A stretch of 64,000 nucleotides of DNA from Candidatus Zhuqueibacterota bacterium (GTDB lineage Bacteria; Zhuqueibacterota; QNDG01; JABMRT01), in NCBI GenBank assembly GCA_013202295.1, contig JABMRT010000093.1:1-64000 (forward strand), written 5' to 3'. Position 1 is the stretch's first letter. The number at the start of each line of letters is the position of its first letter. Both the position numbers and the translations under genes were made by a program. Positions 8,090 through 15,689 of this stretch are shown here, in pieces. The notes under the pieces were generated by a model. It made no database searches. It saw only the letters and a list, made by a program, of their open reading frames with translations, and was not told the origin of the DNA.

Positions 8090-11000
8090 ATGCCCAAACG
8101 TACCGACATTAAAAAAATTATAATTATAGGATCAGGCCCTATTGTGATTGGTCAGGCCTGCGAATTCGACTACTCCGGCACACAGGCCATGAAGGCCCTG
8201 AAGAAACTGGGATACACGACCATTCTAGTGAATTCCAATCCCGCAACCATTATGACCGATCCGGAACTGTCGGACAGAACCTATGTCGAGCCCCTCACAG
8301 TCGATACCGTGGAAAAGATTATCCGGAAAGAAAAACCGGATGCATTGCTCCCCACCATGGGCGGTCAAACTGCTTTGAATATCACGGTGGGGTTGGCCAA
8401 ATCCGGATTCCTCAAGGAACAGGGAGTGATACTAATCGGAGCACAGCTTGAAGCGATTCAAAAGGCTGAGGATCGCGAACTCTTCAAGGATGCGATGATC
8501 AAGATCGGACTGGATTTGCCCAAGGGCGGGTTTGCACACACAGTAGATGAGGCAATGGATCTGGTGAAGTTGGTGGGCTTTCCCGCTATAATTCGCCCTG
8601 CGTATACACTCGGAGGCACGGGCGGCAGCATTGCTTATAATGTTGAGGAATATCGCGAACAAATCCGCTGGGGTCTTGACTGCAGTCCGATCGGTGAAGT
8701 ACTCATCGAAGAGTCGATTATCGGATGGAAAGAATTCGAACTCGAAGTCATGCGCGATCTGAAGGACAATGTGGTCATTATTTGTTCCATCGAGAATCTG
8801 GACGCGATGGGAGTTCATACCGGGGATTCAATCACCGTCGCACCGATCCAGACGCTGACAGATCGTGAATATCAGCTCATGCGGGATGCATCGGTAGCAA
8901 TTATCCGTGAAATTGGCGTGGAAACGGGTGGATCCAACATTCAATTCGGTGTGGATCCAAAGACGGGCAGGATGGTCGTGATTGAGATGAATCCGCGTGT
9001 GTCGCGCAGCTCAGCACTCGCCTCCAAAGCCACGGGATTCCCTATCGCAAAGATCGCTGCGCAACTGGCTGTGGGATTGACGCTGGATGAGATTATGAAT
9101 GACATCACAGGTAAAACCCCGGCGTCATTCGAACCCACCATCGATTATGTGGTATGTAAAATACCGCGTTGGAACTTTGAAAAATTCCCCCAAACAAAAC
9201 CCCTTCTCGGCACGCAGATGAAATCCGTGGGCGAAACCATGGCCATCGGACGCACTTTTAAGGAAGCCTTTCAAAAAGGTCTTCGTTCATTGGAGAACGA
9301 TGTCTATGGATTGGAATTTGATCGCGAAGTGACTCAGGGGGAGATGGAGGAAAATCTAAAGTTTCCAACCGATCAGCGCATCTTTTACCTTGCCGAAGCC
9401 ATGCGGCGCGGCATGATGCTGGAGAAGCTCTATAAACTGACCGGGATTGATCCATGGTTTTTGAGTCAAATTCAATCCATCATTGATGAGGAAGATCAAA
9501 TCCGCAAAAACGGTTTGAAAGCAAAAGGCGCACTATTGCGTGCTAAAAGGTCCGGTTTCTCAGACAATCGGCTTGCGGATTTAACGTTCACAACGGCGTC
9601 GGAAATCAGATCAATGCGACAAGATCAAAACTTAAAGCCGGTTTATAAAATCGTGGATACTTGCGCGGCGGAATTTGAATCGGAAACGTCGTATCTTTAC
9701 GGTACCTACGAGCAGGAAAATGAAGCCCGCAGTTCGGACCGGCCCAAAATTATTATTCTCGGCAGCGGCCCCAATCGGATCGGTCAGGGCATTGAATTCG
9801 ACTATTGCTGTGTACATGCGGTCATGGCCCTGCGCGAAGAGGGCTTCGAAACCATCATGATCAACAACAATCCTGAGACGGTTTCTACGGATTATGACAC
9901 CGCGGATAAGTTGTACTTCGAGCCCCTCACGTTTGAGGATGTGCTGCATGTCGTGGAATTTGAAAAGCCCCTGGGTGTGATTGTCCAGTTTGGAGGCCAG
10001 ACCCCGCTCAAACTGTCCAAACCATTGGAAGCGGCCGGCGTACCAATTCTGGGAACGTCACCGGAATCCATTGATCTTGCCGAAGACCGTGAACGGTTCG
10101 GTGCCCTGATTAAAAGCATGCCCATCAAGATACCTGATTGGGGTACCGCTTTCACTTTTGAAGAGGCCAAGAAAACCGCGGACCGCATCGGTTACCCCGT
10201 ACTCGTGCGCCCCTCTTATGTACTCGGCGGACGGGCCATGGAAATCGTATATGATGAGAAATCGCTGGAACGGTACATCGCTGAAGCGGCCTCCGTCTCG
10301 CCCGATCATCCGATCCTGGTGGACAAATTTCTTGAGGATACCTTCGAATTTGATGTGGACGCCATCTGCGATGGCACAGACACTCTAATCTGCGGATTCA
10401 TGCAGCATATTGAAGAAGCCGGAATTCACTCTGGGGACAGCTCTTGCGTGCTCCCGCCCTACATGATCAGCGATGAGGATTATAAATCCATTTGCGATCA
10501 GACTATTTTGCTCGCGGAGACGCTGGACGTCAAGGGTCTGATCAATGTGCAATTCGCCATGCAAGGTGGTCAGATTTATGTACTGGAAGTCAATCCCAGA
10601 GCGTCACGAACCGTACCATTCGTAAGTAAGGCAACTGGAGTGCCCTGGGCCAAGATCGCTGCCAAGGTGATAGCAGGTAAGAAATTAAAGGAATTTGACA
10701 ACCTCTCTTTGGACATGAAAAACCGTGTGGCCGTTAAATCACCCGTCTTCCCATTTATCAAATTCCCAAATGTGCAAACCTATCTCGGACCTGAGATGCG
10801 ATCCACCGGTGAGGTCATGGGCCTGGACAACGATTTCGGGGGCGCGTTTGCCAAGGCCATTATCGCGACCGGGCATACCCTGCCAATTGAAGGGAATGTC
10901 TTCATCAGCGTAAACAACAATGACAAGGATAGGGCCATTCCCATTGCCCGGCAGCTATATGAGATGGGATTCGGCATTGTGGCCACTTCAGGCACAAAGC

Positions 11001-11278
11001 AGGCTTTTCGAAAAGCAGGAATTCCATGCAAGGAAATCTATAAGGTGGATCAGGGCCGTCCGAATTCAGTGGACATGATTATCAATAAAGAAATCCATCT
11101 GATTGTCAATACACCTCTGGGCAAAGTCTCACGATTTGATGAGTATAATATCGGACGAGTGGCTCTTGCGCATCAGATTCCCTGCCTGACCACACTATCA
11201 GCAGCCTGGGCCGCAGTGAACGCCATTCGATCTCTGCAATCAGGCGAATTGTCCGTCATCGCCTTACAGGATAAATAA
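8090..11278 (+). CDS. carB: Carbamoyl-phosphate synthase large subunit
   Basis: [26 protein letters not shown]; duplicated ATP-grasp halves; C-terminal MGS-like domain. Confidence 0.98.
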
Positions 11279-11285
11279 CGTTTAT

Positions 11286-11322
11286 ACCTCCGGGAAGAGT
11301 GAATTCTCCCTGAGGTTTTTTT
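11286..11322 (+). terminator. Rho-independent terminator after carB
   Basis: ACCTCCGGGA...TCCCTGAGGT hairpin followed by TTTTTT. Confidence 0.8.
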
Positions 11323-11372
11323 AGGCTCTATACTGTTTTGAGAGGGGAGACCTAATCAACAAATATAAATTC

Positions 11373-11634
11373 GCCACGGATTTTCACGGATGCAAACCGA
11401 TTTCAAATGATGAGACGCTTGCACTCAATTTTTCCTTTTTCCGGAACTGGTGAACAGTCCGACTGTCAGTCAAGTCGTTTTCAATGCGACTAACAATTGG
11501 AGCGCATCTTTCGAATTGTGCTTTATCAACACTTCCAGTTCAATAATATAACCTTGAAAAACGGATCAGATCATAATGGCTATTTTTTTCACTCATTTCA
11601 TTTTATCCGTGCTTCATCCGTGTTTATCTGTGGC
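11373..11634 (+). repeat. MITE-like non-coding repeat, copy A
   Basis: Starts GCCACGGATTTTCACGGATG, ends CATCCGTGTTTATCTGTGGC (imperfect terminal inverted repeats); aligned by eye with 27059..27323 and the complement of 18972..19171. Confidence 0.8.
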
Positions 11635-11766
11635 CCTTTTATTAAATGTGGCCCTTTTATTAAATGGATTTTCCAATCCGGCATGATCATTTTCTTCTTT
11701 GAATCCTCTCATTTTTTTCAGTATCTTAAGAGTTGTTAAAATTAATTTTGATGAATCGGGAGCTTT

Positions 11767-13125
11767 ATGAATCAGCCCAACCACACGCAAGAAACACCCA
11801 CCGCACTGATGCGATGGGGCGCGTTAGTGATGATCAGTATCGTCATGTTCGCGAGCTACTATTTCTATGACGTCTACTCAGGCGTCAAATCCACATTACA
11901 GGCAGAAACCGGGATCACAAATGCGGAATACGGCACCATGTACGGCGCCTATTCATTTACAAATTCTATTCTGCTCATGGCTTTTTTGGGCGGCATTTTA
12001 CTCGATCGCTGGGGCATTCGAAAAACCGCGTTGACCTTCTTCGCATTCATGGCTTCTGGTGCCTTACTCACCGCTTACGGCGCATCCAGTGTGTTTCGTG
12101 AAGGGGGTGTTGGATTCTCTCTTTTTAGTAACTTTTTAAAAAACATGTCACCCTCTTTAAAAATGATGATCCTGGGGCGGTTGATTTTCGGACTCGGCGC
12201 GGAAACATTTTATGTTGTCATCAATAAAATTATTGCAAAATGGTTCAAGCATAAAGAGCTCGCACTCGCCTTCGGGATCAGTCTTGCATTCGGTCGTTTC
12301 GGTACAGCGGCCGCCTTCAGCATCTCTCCCCGTCTGGCGAGCAGCGCCTCATCCATTGATCCAGTTGCCTGGTTCAGTGTCATTCTCATGCTTATCAGTT
12401 TGGGAACGCTGATCGTTTATTTGATTCTGGATCGTGTCTATGACCGCCGGTTTACTGCGACGGGACTGACTGCCGAAGGGGAATCCTTCTCACTTCGTGA
12501 CATCAAACTTCTGTTGACCAACAAATCTTTCTTATATATCACGGGATTGTGCGTTCTTTTCTACTCTGCAGTTTTCCCGTTCCTCGGCTTCGCGCCAGAT
12601 TTTCTGCATAATAAATTCGGTTTTTCTCTGGAGCGATCTGGAGATTTAACCACCATTCTGCCTTATGGAACCGTGCTATTTACTCCGATATTCGGATGGT
12701 TCTGTGACAAAAAGGGCAGAAGCGCATCCGTCATGATCACAGGATCGATTATGCTTATCCTCGTGCACCTGACCTTTTCACTGACAAACTTGATGCCCTA
12801 TATTCCGTTATTTCTATTGGGAGTAGCGTTCTCCCTGGTGCCTGCTGCGATGTGGCCTTCGGTCGCAAAAATTGTGGATGAGAAACGACTCGGCACAGCG
12901 TATGGATTCATGTTCACCGTGCAAAATTACGGGCTCATGCTTTTTCCCTGGTTCATCGGGCTGACTTTGGATGCAACCAATAAAAATGTGGCAGCAGGAG
13001 ATCCGCTCAACTACACGTACGCAATAGTGGGATTGTCAGGCATGGGAGTCATCGGTCTCGTTTTTGCGCTGCTTCTGAAACGCGAGGATCTCCGTAATAA
13101 TTCTATCCTTGAAAAAGTCATATGA
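11767..13125 (+). CDS. MFS transporter, MFSD1-like
   Basis: SYYFYDVYSGVKSTLQAETGITNAEYGTMYGAYSFTNSILLMAFLGGILLDRWGIRKTA; LIFGLGAETFYVVINKIIAKWFKHKELALAFGISLAFGRFG. Confidence 0.8.
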   Translation: MNQPNHTQETPTALMRWGALVMISIVMFASYYFYDVYSGVKSTLQAETGITNAEYGTMYGAYSFTNSILLMAFLGGILLDRWGIRKTALTFFAFMASGALLTAYGASSVFREGGVGFSLFSNFLKNMSPSLKMMILGRLIFGLGAETFYVVINKIIAKWFKHKELALAFGISLAFGRFGTAAAFSISPRLASSASSIDPVAWFSVILMLISLGTLIVYLILDRVYDRRFTATGLTAEGESFSLRDIKLLLTNKSFLYITGLCVLFYSAVFPFLGFAPDFLHNKFGFSLERSGDLTTILPYGTVLFTPIFGWFCDKKGRSASVMITGSIMLILVHLTFSLTNLMPYIPLFLLGVAFSLVPAAMWPSVAKIVDEKRLGTAYGFMFTVQNYGLMLFPWFIGLTLDATNKNVAAGDPLNYTYAIVGLSGMGVIGLVFALLLKREDLRNNSILEKVI

Positions 13126-13139
13126 GGAGGATTCTGCAA

Positions 13140-13466
13140 ATGAAAACCGGGATTACTTTTTTCTTGATCATCTTGCTTGTGACAGGATGTTTTCATCGAT
13201 CCGGCCCTGCACCCCAGTCTAAATGGGATGCCATGCTTCAGATGGAAATCAACAAAAACCACGAAAACCCAATCCACTTTTCTGGCCTGTGTTCCAAGCC
13301 GATTACGGATAGAGTCAAGCATGAGATGGAAAAATCCGGCATTGTGATTCAGACCCGGATAGATGATAAATTTACGGCAATCGGAAATACCAAACAAATC
13401 AGGAAACTCTCTCGTCTGAGATATGTTAAACGGCTTGAGGGTGCCAAACCGGTTAAAATGCACTAG
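13140..13466 (+). CDS. Small predicted lipoprotein resembling the propeptide of the adjacent subtilase (ORF track start 13122; AGGAGG precedes ATG 13140)
   Basis: Lipobox LLVTGC; C-terminal 42 aa align without gaps to residues 75-116 of the downstream S8 protease (14 identities counted by eye). Confidence 0.75.
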   Translation: MKTGITFFLIILLVTGCFHRSGPAPQSKWDAMLQMEINKNHENPIHFSGLCSKPITDRVKHEMEKSGIVIQTRIDDKFTAIGNTKQIRKLSRLRYVKRLEGAKPVKMH

Positions 13467-13481
13467 AAAGGGAAACTCCAA

Positions 13482-15689
13482 ATGAAACGTCTCACACTTG
13501 TAATTCTGCTTGTCAGTTTTTGTGGTAGTTTAATCGCTGATTCAAATAGGGCTCATCTCGATAAAATGGATGCCATGCTTCGCATACGTTTGGCCGGCAA
13601 TCAGCTGTCCGGCATGAAACTGGGTCCTGCAAAGATTACCGCTGATAATAGGGTTCGAATTATTTTAAAAGGTTCTGATCCAGCATCTGCTATAGAGGAG
13701 GTAGGCGGTACTGTGCATACTCGTATCGGAGAGTTTGCGACCGCGCATGTGGCGTTGGACAGGATTGAAGATCTGGCCAAATTCGGCAGTGTCGAGCGCA
13801 TGCAATTGAGCCGCCCCGTGAAACTCCACAATGATCAGGCCGCTATATTTTCCGAAGCAGATAAAGTTAAAAATGGGACCTCCCCCCTTTCAATGGAATA
13901 TGATGGCACAGATGTGATTGTAGGCATTATTGATTCGGGCATTGACATCGATCATGAAGATTTTAAAAACGCAGATGGCACAACGCGCATTCTCTCGATT
14001 TGGGATCAAAATGTTGATCCGGTTGTGAATCCGCCGGGTGGATTCGACTATGGCCGCGAATGGACACAAACACAAATCAATAGCGGCGTCTGCACCCATG
14101 TCGATACAGACGGACACGGTACACATGTGGCCGGATCAGCTGCAGGCAATGGCCGGGCAATAGGTGCGCATACCGGCATGGCGCCGAAGAGTGATATCAT
14201 CATGGTCGCAACGAATTTCTACTCAACCAGCATCATAGACGGCGCCAGTTATATCTACACCAAGGCAGCAGCTCTGGGTAAACCCTGTGTGATCAATGCT
14301 AGCATTGGAAATCATTTTGGACCCCACGATGGCACCGGTCTGGAATCACAAGCCCTGGACGCATTAATCGCAGCCAATAATGGCCGTTCGTTTTGTTCCT
14401 CTGCCGGAAACGAGGGAAATGACTATATGCATTATTCCATTCCTTCTTCCGATTCGTCATGGACCTATGTTCATGCTAATGAAGATCAATACGCGATCCT
14501 GTTTATACGTTTGCCGGGGCTGATTAAAAATACCATGAAGATACGAATCGGCTGGGATTTCAGCACATACAATCCAAATGATGAATCTGGGGGACCGTAT
14601 GCGTTTGTCGGTCAGACCGACTGGTATACACCGTGGCAAATCATAGGTCAGGAAGGTATTTTTCTGGAGGCATCTCAGGGAGTTACCACACTCGGCCAGA
14701 TCGGCTTTTTTCCTAACACAAACTCCGGCGGCACCACTACCATTGCAATTCAAATATGGGACAACATGACCTGGAATCAAAACGCAGAGACAGTTCAGAA
14801 CATGGAGCTATGGCGCCTAATCATTGAAGGCGCAAACTCGGACGTTGATGTATGGATCGCGGACATTGGTTATCCCTATCTTAATACTGTATCTGCACCC
14901 AATTATATCGTACCGGACAACAATAAAAGTGTGGGCATGCCCGCTGTGGCGAATAATGTCATCGCGGTCGGGGCCTATATGAGTCGAACAGAATGGCTGG
15001 CTTCTGATGGAAACACATACTTGTATGACCCGGACTATGTTGTAGGACAGCTTGCGCCGTTTTCTTCCATTGGCCCCAGTGCGGACGGACGCGTCAAACC
15101 GGAGATAACAGCCCCCGGCATGGCCGTGATTTCTGCGCTCTCCTCTGCAATGACAGGTGTTGAAGCAGCCAGGCTTGTGCCTGGAGAACAACATTGGGCC
15201 TCACAGGGAACCAGCATGGCCAGCCCAATCACGGCCGGGTGTGTCGCATTGTACCTGCAAAAAAATCCAAATGCCACACACTCTCAGATCAAGCAGGCCG
15301 TGATCAACTCCGCGACGAATGATGGATTTACAGGATCTTTACCCAACAATACCTGGGGTTATGGAAAACTCAACATCTTCAGCATGATGACCGCTAACGC
15401 TGTTGAAGATAATCCGGCTCAACCGGGATCATTTGAACTCTTCGCGGCATATCCCAATCCATTCAATCCGACGTCCACAATTCGTTATCAGCTCCCGGCG
15501 CAGTCAAAAGTACAACTCTCGATCTATAATGCTTTGGGACAATTACAAGAAGTGCTGATCGATCAGGTGCAATCCGAAGGCACCCATCAGGTTCAGGTGG
15601 ATGGCAGCGACTGGGCAAGCGGTGTCTATCTCTGCAAAATCGAAGCAGCCGGACAAATCCGAACGACCAAGATGATTCTGATGAAATAA
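13482..15689 (+). CDS. S8 subtilisin-like serine protease with T9SS-type C-terminal sorting domain
   Basis: Catalytic motifs VGIIDSGIDIDHEDF, DGHGTHVAGSAAGNG, GTSMASPITAG; C-terminal YPNPFNPTSTIRYQLP...GVYLCKIEAAGQIRTTKMILMK. Confidence 0.93.
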   Translation: MKRLTLVILLVSFCGSLIADSNRAHLDKMDAMLRIRLAGNQLSGMKLGPAKITADNRVRIILKGSDPASAIEEVGGTVHTRIGEFATAHVALDRIEDLAKFGSVERMQLSRPVKLHNDQAAIFSEADKVKNGTSPLSMEYDGTDVIVGIIDSGIDIDHEDFKNADGTTRILSIWDQNVDPVVNPPGGFDYGREWTQTQINSGVCTHVDTDGHGTHVAGSAAGNGRAIGAHTGMAPKSDIIMVATNFYSTSIIDGASYIYTKAAALGKPCVINASIGNHFGPHDGTGLESQALDALIAANNGRSFCSSAGNEGNDYMHYSIPSSDSSWTYVHANEDQYAILFIRLPGLIKNTMKIRIGWDFSTYNPNDESGGPYAFVGQTDWYTPWQIIGQEGIFLEASQGVTTLGQIGFFPNTNSGGTTTIAIQIWDNMTWNQNAETVQNMELWRLIIEGANSDVDVWIADIGYPYLNTVSAPNYIVPDNNKSVGMPAVANNVIAVGAYMSRTEWLASDGNTYLYDPDYVVGQLAPFSSIGPSADGRVKPEITAPGMAVISALSSAMTGVEAARLVPGEQHWASQGTSMASPITAGCVALYLQKNPNATHSQIKQAVINSATNDGFTGSLPNNTWGYGKLNIFSMMTANAVEDNPAQPGSFELFAAYPNPFNPTSTIRYQLPAQSKVQLSIYNALGQLQEVLIDQVQSEGTHQVQVDGSDWASGVYLCKIEAAGQIRTTKMILMK

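Follow-up and report, generated by a model that had tools for sequence, protein, structure and literature searches.

A stand-alone propeptide-like lipoprotein encoded beside a secreted subtilase is a probable cognate-specific protease inhibitor in candidate division KSB1

Introduction

Fungi, plants, and apicomplexans have stand-alone inhibitors that resemble the propeptides of subtilases (the I9 type; PMC6993865). Examples include Pleurotus POIA1, yeast proteinase B inhibitor 2, Arabidopsis SPI-1, Toxoplasma MIC5, and Plasmodium SUB1-ProM, the last of which is encoded beside subtilisin genes and has a tail that, its authors propose, adapts to the cognate enzyme (PMC6993865). Here we analyze a 64,000-nt stretch of DNA, hereafter called the window, from a Candidatus Zhuqueibacterota bacterium of candidate division KSB1 (assembly GCA_013202295.1, contig JABMRT010000093.1, positions 1 to 64,000). 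The window encodes a 108-residue lipoprotein that is a stand-alone homolog of the propeptide of an S8 subtilase. The gene for this protease lies 15 bp downstream in the same direction, and its product carries a sorting tail for the type IX secretion system (T9SS). Judged from its sequence, the lipoprotein is probably a duplicated, free-standing propeptide that acts as a membrane-tethered inhibitor specific for the adjacent protease.

The potempins of Tannerella forsythia, which adopt oligonucleotide/oligosaccharide-binding (OB) folds or up-and-down beta-barrels, are a second point of comparison. A small lipoprotein gene precedes every KLIKK protease gene in this species, including potC with mirolase, and the sequences of these lipoproteins are not significantly similar among themselves (PMC4404884). 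They were later named potempins, and their inhibition is specific for the co-expressed protease (PMC7296668). An earlier note on the window, made from its letters alone, knew of no lipoprotein propeptide paired with a T9SS protease. The potempins, although of a different fold, are an already described case of lipoprotein inhibitors paired with T9SS proteases (PMC4404884; PMC7296668), and the broader claim that T9SS proteases have no known lipoprotein inhibitor has to be rejected.

A third system is the dentilisin operon prcB-prcA-prtP of Treponema denticola, whose first gene encodes the lipoprotein PrcB, a physical interaction partner of the subtilase PrtP (PMC8167434). As in the KSB1 pair, the lipoprotein gene lies upstream of the subtilase gene. 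In contrast to the KSB1 lipoprotein, PrcB is a 23-kDa protein with no homologs outside oral treponemes, is required for the accumulation of PrtP, and was not shown to be inhibitory (PMC8167434).

Results

The lipoprotein is a homolog of its neighbor's propeptide

The lipoprotein and the propeptide of the next gene can be aligned without gaps over 42 residues with 14 identities, exactly as the earlier note gave it, and both proteins carry the K-x-D-A-M-L motif that it had pointed out. In a local alignment scored with BLOSUM62, the mature lipoprotein and the propeptide reach 69, compared with 25 ± 4.4 for shuffled sequences. The C-terminal 42 residues of the lipoprotein alone score 60, against 18.5 ± 3.8 when shuffled. 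Chance similarity can be rejected, given that none of 20,000 shuffles in either direction scored as high as the real alignment. A tblastn search of the whole 5.1-Mb genome with the lipoprotein returned, as the sole second match, the propeptide of the neighboring protease, and a profile made from 11 lipoprotein relatives retrieves the same propeptide with an E value of 2.3e-13. By tblastn and profile search, the host genome holds one lipoprotein of this kind.

The resemblance extends to the predicted fold, which is that of a subtilisin propeptide and agrees with what the earlier note expected. An AlphaFold model of the lipoprotein, which rests on a thin alignment of seven sequences, has a predicted local distance difference test score (pLDDT) of 74 and the order (helix)-beta-alpha-beta-beta-alpha-beta. 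When this model was compared with the PDB by Foldseek, the top matches were pro-subtilisin E, the Tk-subtilisin propeptide, the BPN' prosegment, and the CspB prodomain, at probabilities of about 1.0 yet E values of 0.01–0.1. The protease's own propeptide is modeled with an identical order of strands and helices. This comparison used the propeptide part alone (pLDDT about 70–82) from an otherwise poor model of the whole pro-protease (mean pLDDT 45, seven-row alignment).

The lipoprotein family lies outside the coverage of Pfam and NCBIfam. PF18425 (CspB_prodomain) is the sole Pfam family matching several of 28 relatives (4 of 28, best E value 4.3e-4). Its curated cutoff of 25 bits was not reached in the window, where the propeptide scores 12.9 bits and the lipoprotein is unmatched. 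PF05922 (Inhibitor_I9) matched neither the window protein nor the 28 relatives, and one cytosolic relative gave an E value of 0.095, under the cutoff. Because no match lies above the cutoff, the lipoprotein is not placed in PF05922. Searching the PDB sequences with the lipoprotein profile likewise gave no match.

The tail is matched to the partner at P4, P2, and P1

The specificity of subtilisins resides mainly in the S1 and S4 pockets, and P3 faces the solvent. The tail of a propeptide occupies the non-primed side of the active site much as a product would, and exchanging the tail alters the strength of POIA1 and of yeast inhibitor 2 (PMC10580911). We therefore aligned the tails of 22 nonredundant lipoprotein/propeptide pairs on a conserved V-x-x-I/L anchor and compared cognate with permuted pairs. 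The lipoprotein and propeptide tails read VKMH/VKLH in the window and, among its relatives, MKPL/MRKL, LKPK/LKIK, LKIH/LNLH, VHKR/VRKR, and AKLR/ARLR.

Cognate pairs are more similar than permuted ones at P4 (z 7.1, with 15 of 22 pairs identical), at P1 (z 5.2, with 11 of 22 identical), and at P2 (z 3.4). Among 28 consecutive positions no others rise above z 2.9, with no cognate-specific signal at P3, P5, or P8 in the 22 pairs, and a shift of the register by one residue abolishes the signal at P4, P2, and P1. The combined signal at these three positions stays when partners are permuted within lipoprotein clades (z 4.0, p 1.5e-4), compared with z 0.7 for other tail positions. Sister contrasts are positive in 11 cases and negative in 2, against 3 positive and 6 negative for other tail positions. 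These patterns suggest that the tail is matched to the S4, S2, and S1 pockets of the partner, in line with the interface at the active-site cleft that the earlier note looked for.

Two features distinguish the ends of the two tails. All 22 protease precursors have Asp or Asn at P2', two residues past the predicted P1, and the lipoproteins do not retain it. The lipoproteins end 0–16 residues past P1, and three of them, including that of the window, end exactly at P1.

The gene pair is conserved in KSB1

Searching 82 KSB1 genomes with a profile and inspecting the loci yielded 41 small homologs of the lipoprotein. Two at contig ends (loci L026 and L069) were left out, and 33 of the 39 assessable homologs directly adjoin a same-strand S8 gene, with 30 lying upstream of it and 3 downstream (L082, L086, and L087). 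Thus, relatives have kept the gene pair, a point on which the earlier note had staked its proposal. Excluding the profile seeds, one of which (L033) had been picked partly for its neighbor gene, 23 of 29 assessable homologs adjoin an S8 gene. Pairs are present in 29 of the 82 genomes and in 11 families. By chance, a given gene should adjoin an S8 gene with a probability of <1%, since a genome of several thousand genes has about a dozen of them.

A contig scan with the single lipoprotein as query found no relative. The diversity within an alignment of 28 lipoproteins precluded a pattern search; a narrower alignment yielded six KSB1 loci.

Two loci are worth separate mention. L065 holds two lipoprotein-protease pairs in tandem, each matched in its tails (SKPL/SRPL and RPPL/RQSL). 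L088 encodes, on the minus strand (L088:640-1102), a second and unrelated stand-alone prodomain lipoprotein of about 103 residues with the lipobox MAGC. This protein has a fervidolysin-type N-terminal prodomain (PF22148, E value 6.7e-10), and the 6.5-kb locus around it contains no S8 gene.

Lipoproteins and proteases appear to share compartments

All secreted partners with an intact C terminus end in a T9SS-type tail, as judged by eye. Nearly all of their lipoproteins have a recognizable lipobox, the exceptions being L068 (truncated start) and L065 (doubtful), and the lipobox Cys is invariant across the lipoprotein alignments. The lipobox suggests that the lipoproteins reside at the periplasmic face or at the cell surface. 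The partners in L086 and L087 have neither signal peptide nor T9SS tail, and their small neighbors likewise lack a signal peptide. These observations fit a match of compartments between lipoprotein and partner, represented on the cytosolic side by two cases from one family.

Cytosolic forms of the propeptide-like domain, of about 89–103 residues, occur in one KSB1 family (L084:1-445, L084:4617-4956, L088, L089, L086, and L087). In four of the six, the protease is not next door; those in L086 and L087 adjoin S8 genes.

Layout of the locus

The features of the locus are collected in Table 1. The protease precursor consists of a signal peptide, the propeptide, the S8 domain, and the T9SS tail, in this order. 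The host genome encodes SprA, the T9SS translocon, and has at least 150 matches to T9SS tails and about a dozen S8 genes. With its D/H/S motifs, its tail, and a T9SS in the genome, the partner qualifies as a T9SS-exported S8 subtilase.

Table 1. Features of the lipoprotein-protease locus in the window
Feature	Positions	Strand	Basis
Stand-alone propeptide-like lipoprotein, 108 residues	13140..13466	+	Open reading frame, lipobox; propeptide homology; predicted I9/propeptide fold
Type II signal peptide closing with lipobox LVTGC; lipidated Cys17 codon 13188-13190	13140..13190	+	Sequence
Propeptide-like domain, Lys28 to His108 (K-x-D-x-x-L motif, then beta-alpha-beta-beta-alpha-beta)	13221..13463	+	AlphaFold, Foldseek
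Lipoprotein C-terminal tail V-K-M-H, predicted P4-P1; chain ends exactly at P1	13452..13463	+	Register alignment, P4/P2/P1 covariation
Cognate S8 subtilase precursor, 735 residues, with T9SS sorting tail	13482..15689	+	Pfam Peptidase_S8 E 7e-46, Por_Secre_tail E 3e-11
Protease's own propeptide, Lys28 to His116; tail V-K-L-H, predicted P4-P1, then N-D	13563..13829	+	Alignment; strand/helix order in AlphaFold model
S8 catalytic domain with DSGID, GHGTH, and GTSMAS motifs	13896..15365	+	Pfam, PDB and genome search
T9SS C-terminal sorting domain (Por_Secre_tail)	15450..15677	+	Pfam
Major facilitator superfamily (MFS) transporter gene upstream; context, outside the pair	11767..13125	+	Open reading frame; Pfam MFS_1 E 2.6e-38

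The MFS transporter gene ends 14 bp before the lipoprotein gene. The order carB, MFS transporter, lipoprotein, and S8 protease is kept in three KSB1 genera (window positions 8090-15689, L022, and L025), where the neighbor genes in L022 and L025, including the transporter, were assigned by position, size, and sequence start. A peptidase C69 gene (15730-17343, E value 2.5e-93) comes after the protease, which places two peptidase genes in a row. An anti-phage role for the locus is unsupported, given that PADLOC matches the protease through generic subtilase and IetS models only and leaves the lipoprotein unmatched.

Discussion

Comparison with described inhibitors

Like the I9-type inhibitors, the KSB1 lipoprotein is the product of a separate small gene, is predicted to have the propeptide fold, and has a tail expected to lie in the active site. 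It has its own small open reading frame with a signal peptide and a stop codon and does not depend on release from a precursor. Its agreement with the cognate propeptide at P4, P2, and P1 suggests a tail suited to the non-primed subsites. The I9-type examples in one overview are eukaryotic, and none is called a bacterial lipoprotein there (PMC6993865), whereas the KSB1 form is a lipoprotein. Furthermore, the KSB1 domain is detectably homologous to the propeptide of its own partner, and this partner is T9SS cargo.

The layout of the KSB1 pairs is that of the potempins, with a small lipoprotein gene immediately upstream of the gene for a T9SS-secreted protease. In Tannerella there is one inhibitor per protease, specific for the co-expressed enzyme, and coevolution has been proposed; the KSB1 pairs would follow the same pattern. 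The KSB1 lipoproteins differ in being copies of S8 propeptides that have S8 partners where paired, with a predicted propeptide fold and not a beta-barrel. Thus, the KSB1 pair may work like a potempin pair while being built from the protease's own propeptide, and by its predicted fold the lipoprotein is not a potempin.

The nearest solved relatives of the window protease are CspB-type germination proteases (PDB 4i0w). The CspB prodomain is part of CspB's own precursor, and we know of no separate lipoprotein copy of it. Besides its weak match to a few lipoproteins of the KSB1 family, it is structurally near the lipoprotein model.

A probable cognate inhibitor and its alternatives

From the homology, the predicted fold, the conserved pairing, and the residue-specific covariation with the partner, we infer that the lipoprotein probably binds and inhibits the protease within or on the envelope and thereby protects the cell. 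It would fold as a subtilisin propeptide and dock on the catalytic domain at the site earlier held by the protease's own propeptide. The tail V-K-M-H would then lie, product-like from P4 to P1, along the non-primed side of the cleft and fill S4, S2, and S1. The protease would fold with its cis propeptide, cleave it off, and leave through the T9SS, and the lipid-anchored copy might capture prematurely active or mis-sorted protease inside the envelope, or protease at the cell's own surface.

Several observations weigh against such an inhibitor. Six homologs have no adjacent S8 partner: that in L073, where the S8 gene 1.4 kb away, behind an opposite-strand gene, is of another type; that in L077; and the two in L084 and those in L088 and L089, these last four being forms without a signal peptide. 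Some pairs are unmatched at P4 or P1 (e.g., L066, L072, L074, and L075). Most lipoproteins run 1–16 residues past P1, and therefore either trimming would be needed or these are uncleaved inhibitors. Moreover, covariation alone cannot separate an inhibitor from a chaperone, because propeptide tails serve both roles. The earlier note had left both roles on offer, and the main task of the lipoprotein might be to assist the folding or stability of the protease in trans, in the periplasm and ahead of T9SS export, and not to switch it off. Subtilisin propeptides are foldases in general (PMC10580911), the need of PrtP for PrcB is a fair precedent (PMC8167434), and the spacing of 15 bp between the co-directional genes points to joint expression. 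We nevertheless consider a chaperone improbable, because each paired protease keeps a complete propeptide with its own P4-P1 tail, so that folding help in cis is present, and because S8 proteases with the same propeptide type exist without a lipoprotein (L091–L096). Product-like matching at the level of single pockets is, in addition, foremost a need of an inhibitor. Thus, the inhibitor half of the earlier proposal seems the better supported, and the chaperone half the less.

Less probable still is a cell-surface lipoprotein that regulates or competes with released proteases, whether the cell's own or a neighbor's, in place of a safety lock in the envelope. Several relatives show K/R-D/E right after the lipidated Cys (CKDPE, CKEPE, and CRDPE), which we take to resemble somewhat the surface-export signal of Bacteroidota, and potempins act as inhibitors at the cell surface (potempin A, PMC10909966). 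No such signal follows the Cys of the window protein (CFHRSG), however, and the specific match to the adjacent protease favors self-protection over targets from other species. We give very little credence to shared ancestry alone, by which the lipoprotein would be a recent propeptide duplicate without a dedicated role toward its partner. It is true that core domains of the same pair resemble each other more than those of different pairs (z 7.1); within clades, too, the core is somewhat pair-specific (z 2.6), as co-inheritance predicts. In a tree built without the tail columns, lipoproteins and propeptides are separated by 7 changes, of which strongly supported branches force at least 4, which points to recurrent duplication or conversion. 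The same 7 changes compare with 26.6 for shuffled labels, however, which places most lipoproteins in clades apart from their cognate propeptides and indicates that most are old, with the domain duplicated or converted more than once. Core identity between lipoprotein and cognate propeptide is just 18–39%, and strong matching within the tail is limited to P4, P2, and P1. The ratio of nonsynonymous to synonymous substitution rates (dN/dS) is 0.18–0.34, and therefore purifying selection persists, as does adjacency across the phylum. The separation in the tree and the within-clade covariation of the tail lead us to reject recent duplication as the whole story.

Implications

The membrane-tethered cognate inhibitor that we favor joins two known ideas in an uncultured phylum: the propeptide-like inhibitor with a gene of its own, and the lipoprotein inhibitor that accompanies a T9SS protease. 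With somewhat less assurance than for the window pair, we lean toward a phylum-wide form of self-protection that arose by repeated capture of the propeptides of secreted proteases as separate lipid-anchored inhibitors, each coevolving with its target at exactly P4, P2, and P1. A genome alone would then tell which inhibitor fits which protease and would hint at cleavage preference. The matching of inhibitor and protease can be read directly from sequence, since the tail residues predicted to fill S4, S2, and S1 covary and their neighbors do not. The evolution of inhibitor specificity thereby becomes testable through swaps of two or three residues, and the pairs suggest a way in which bacteria may restrain dangerous secreted proteases ahead of export.
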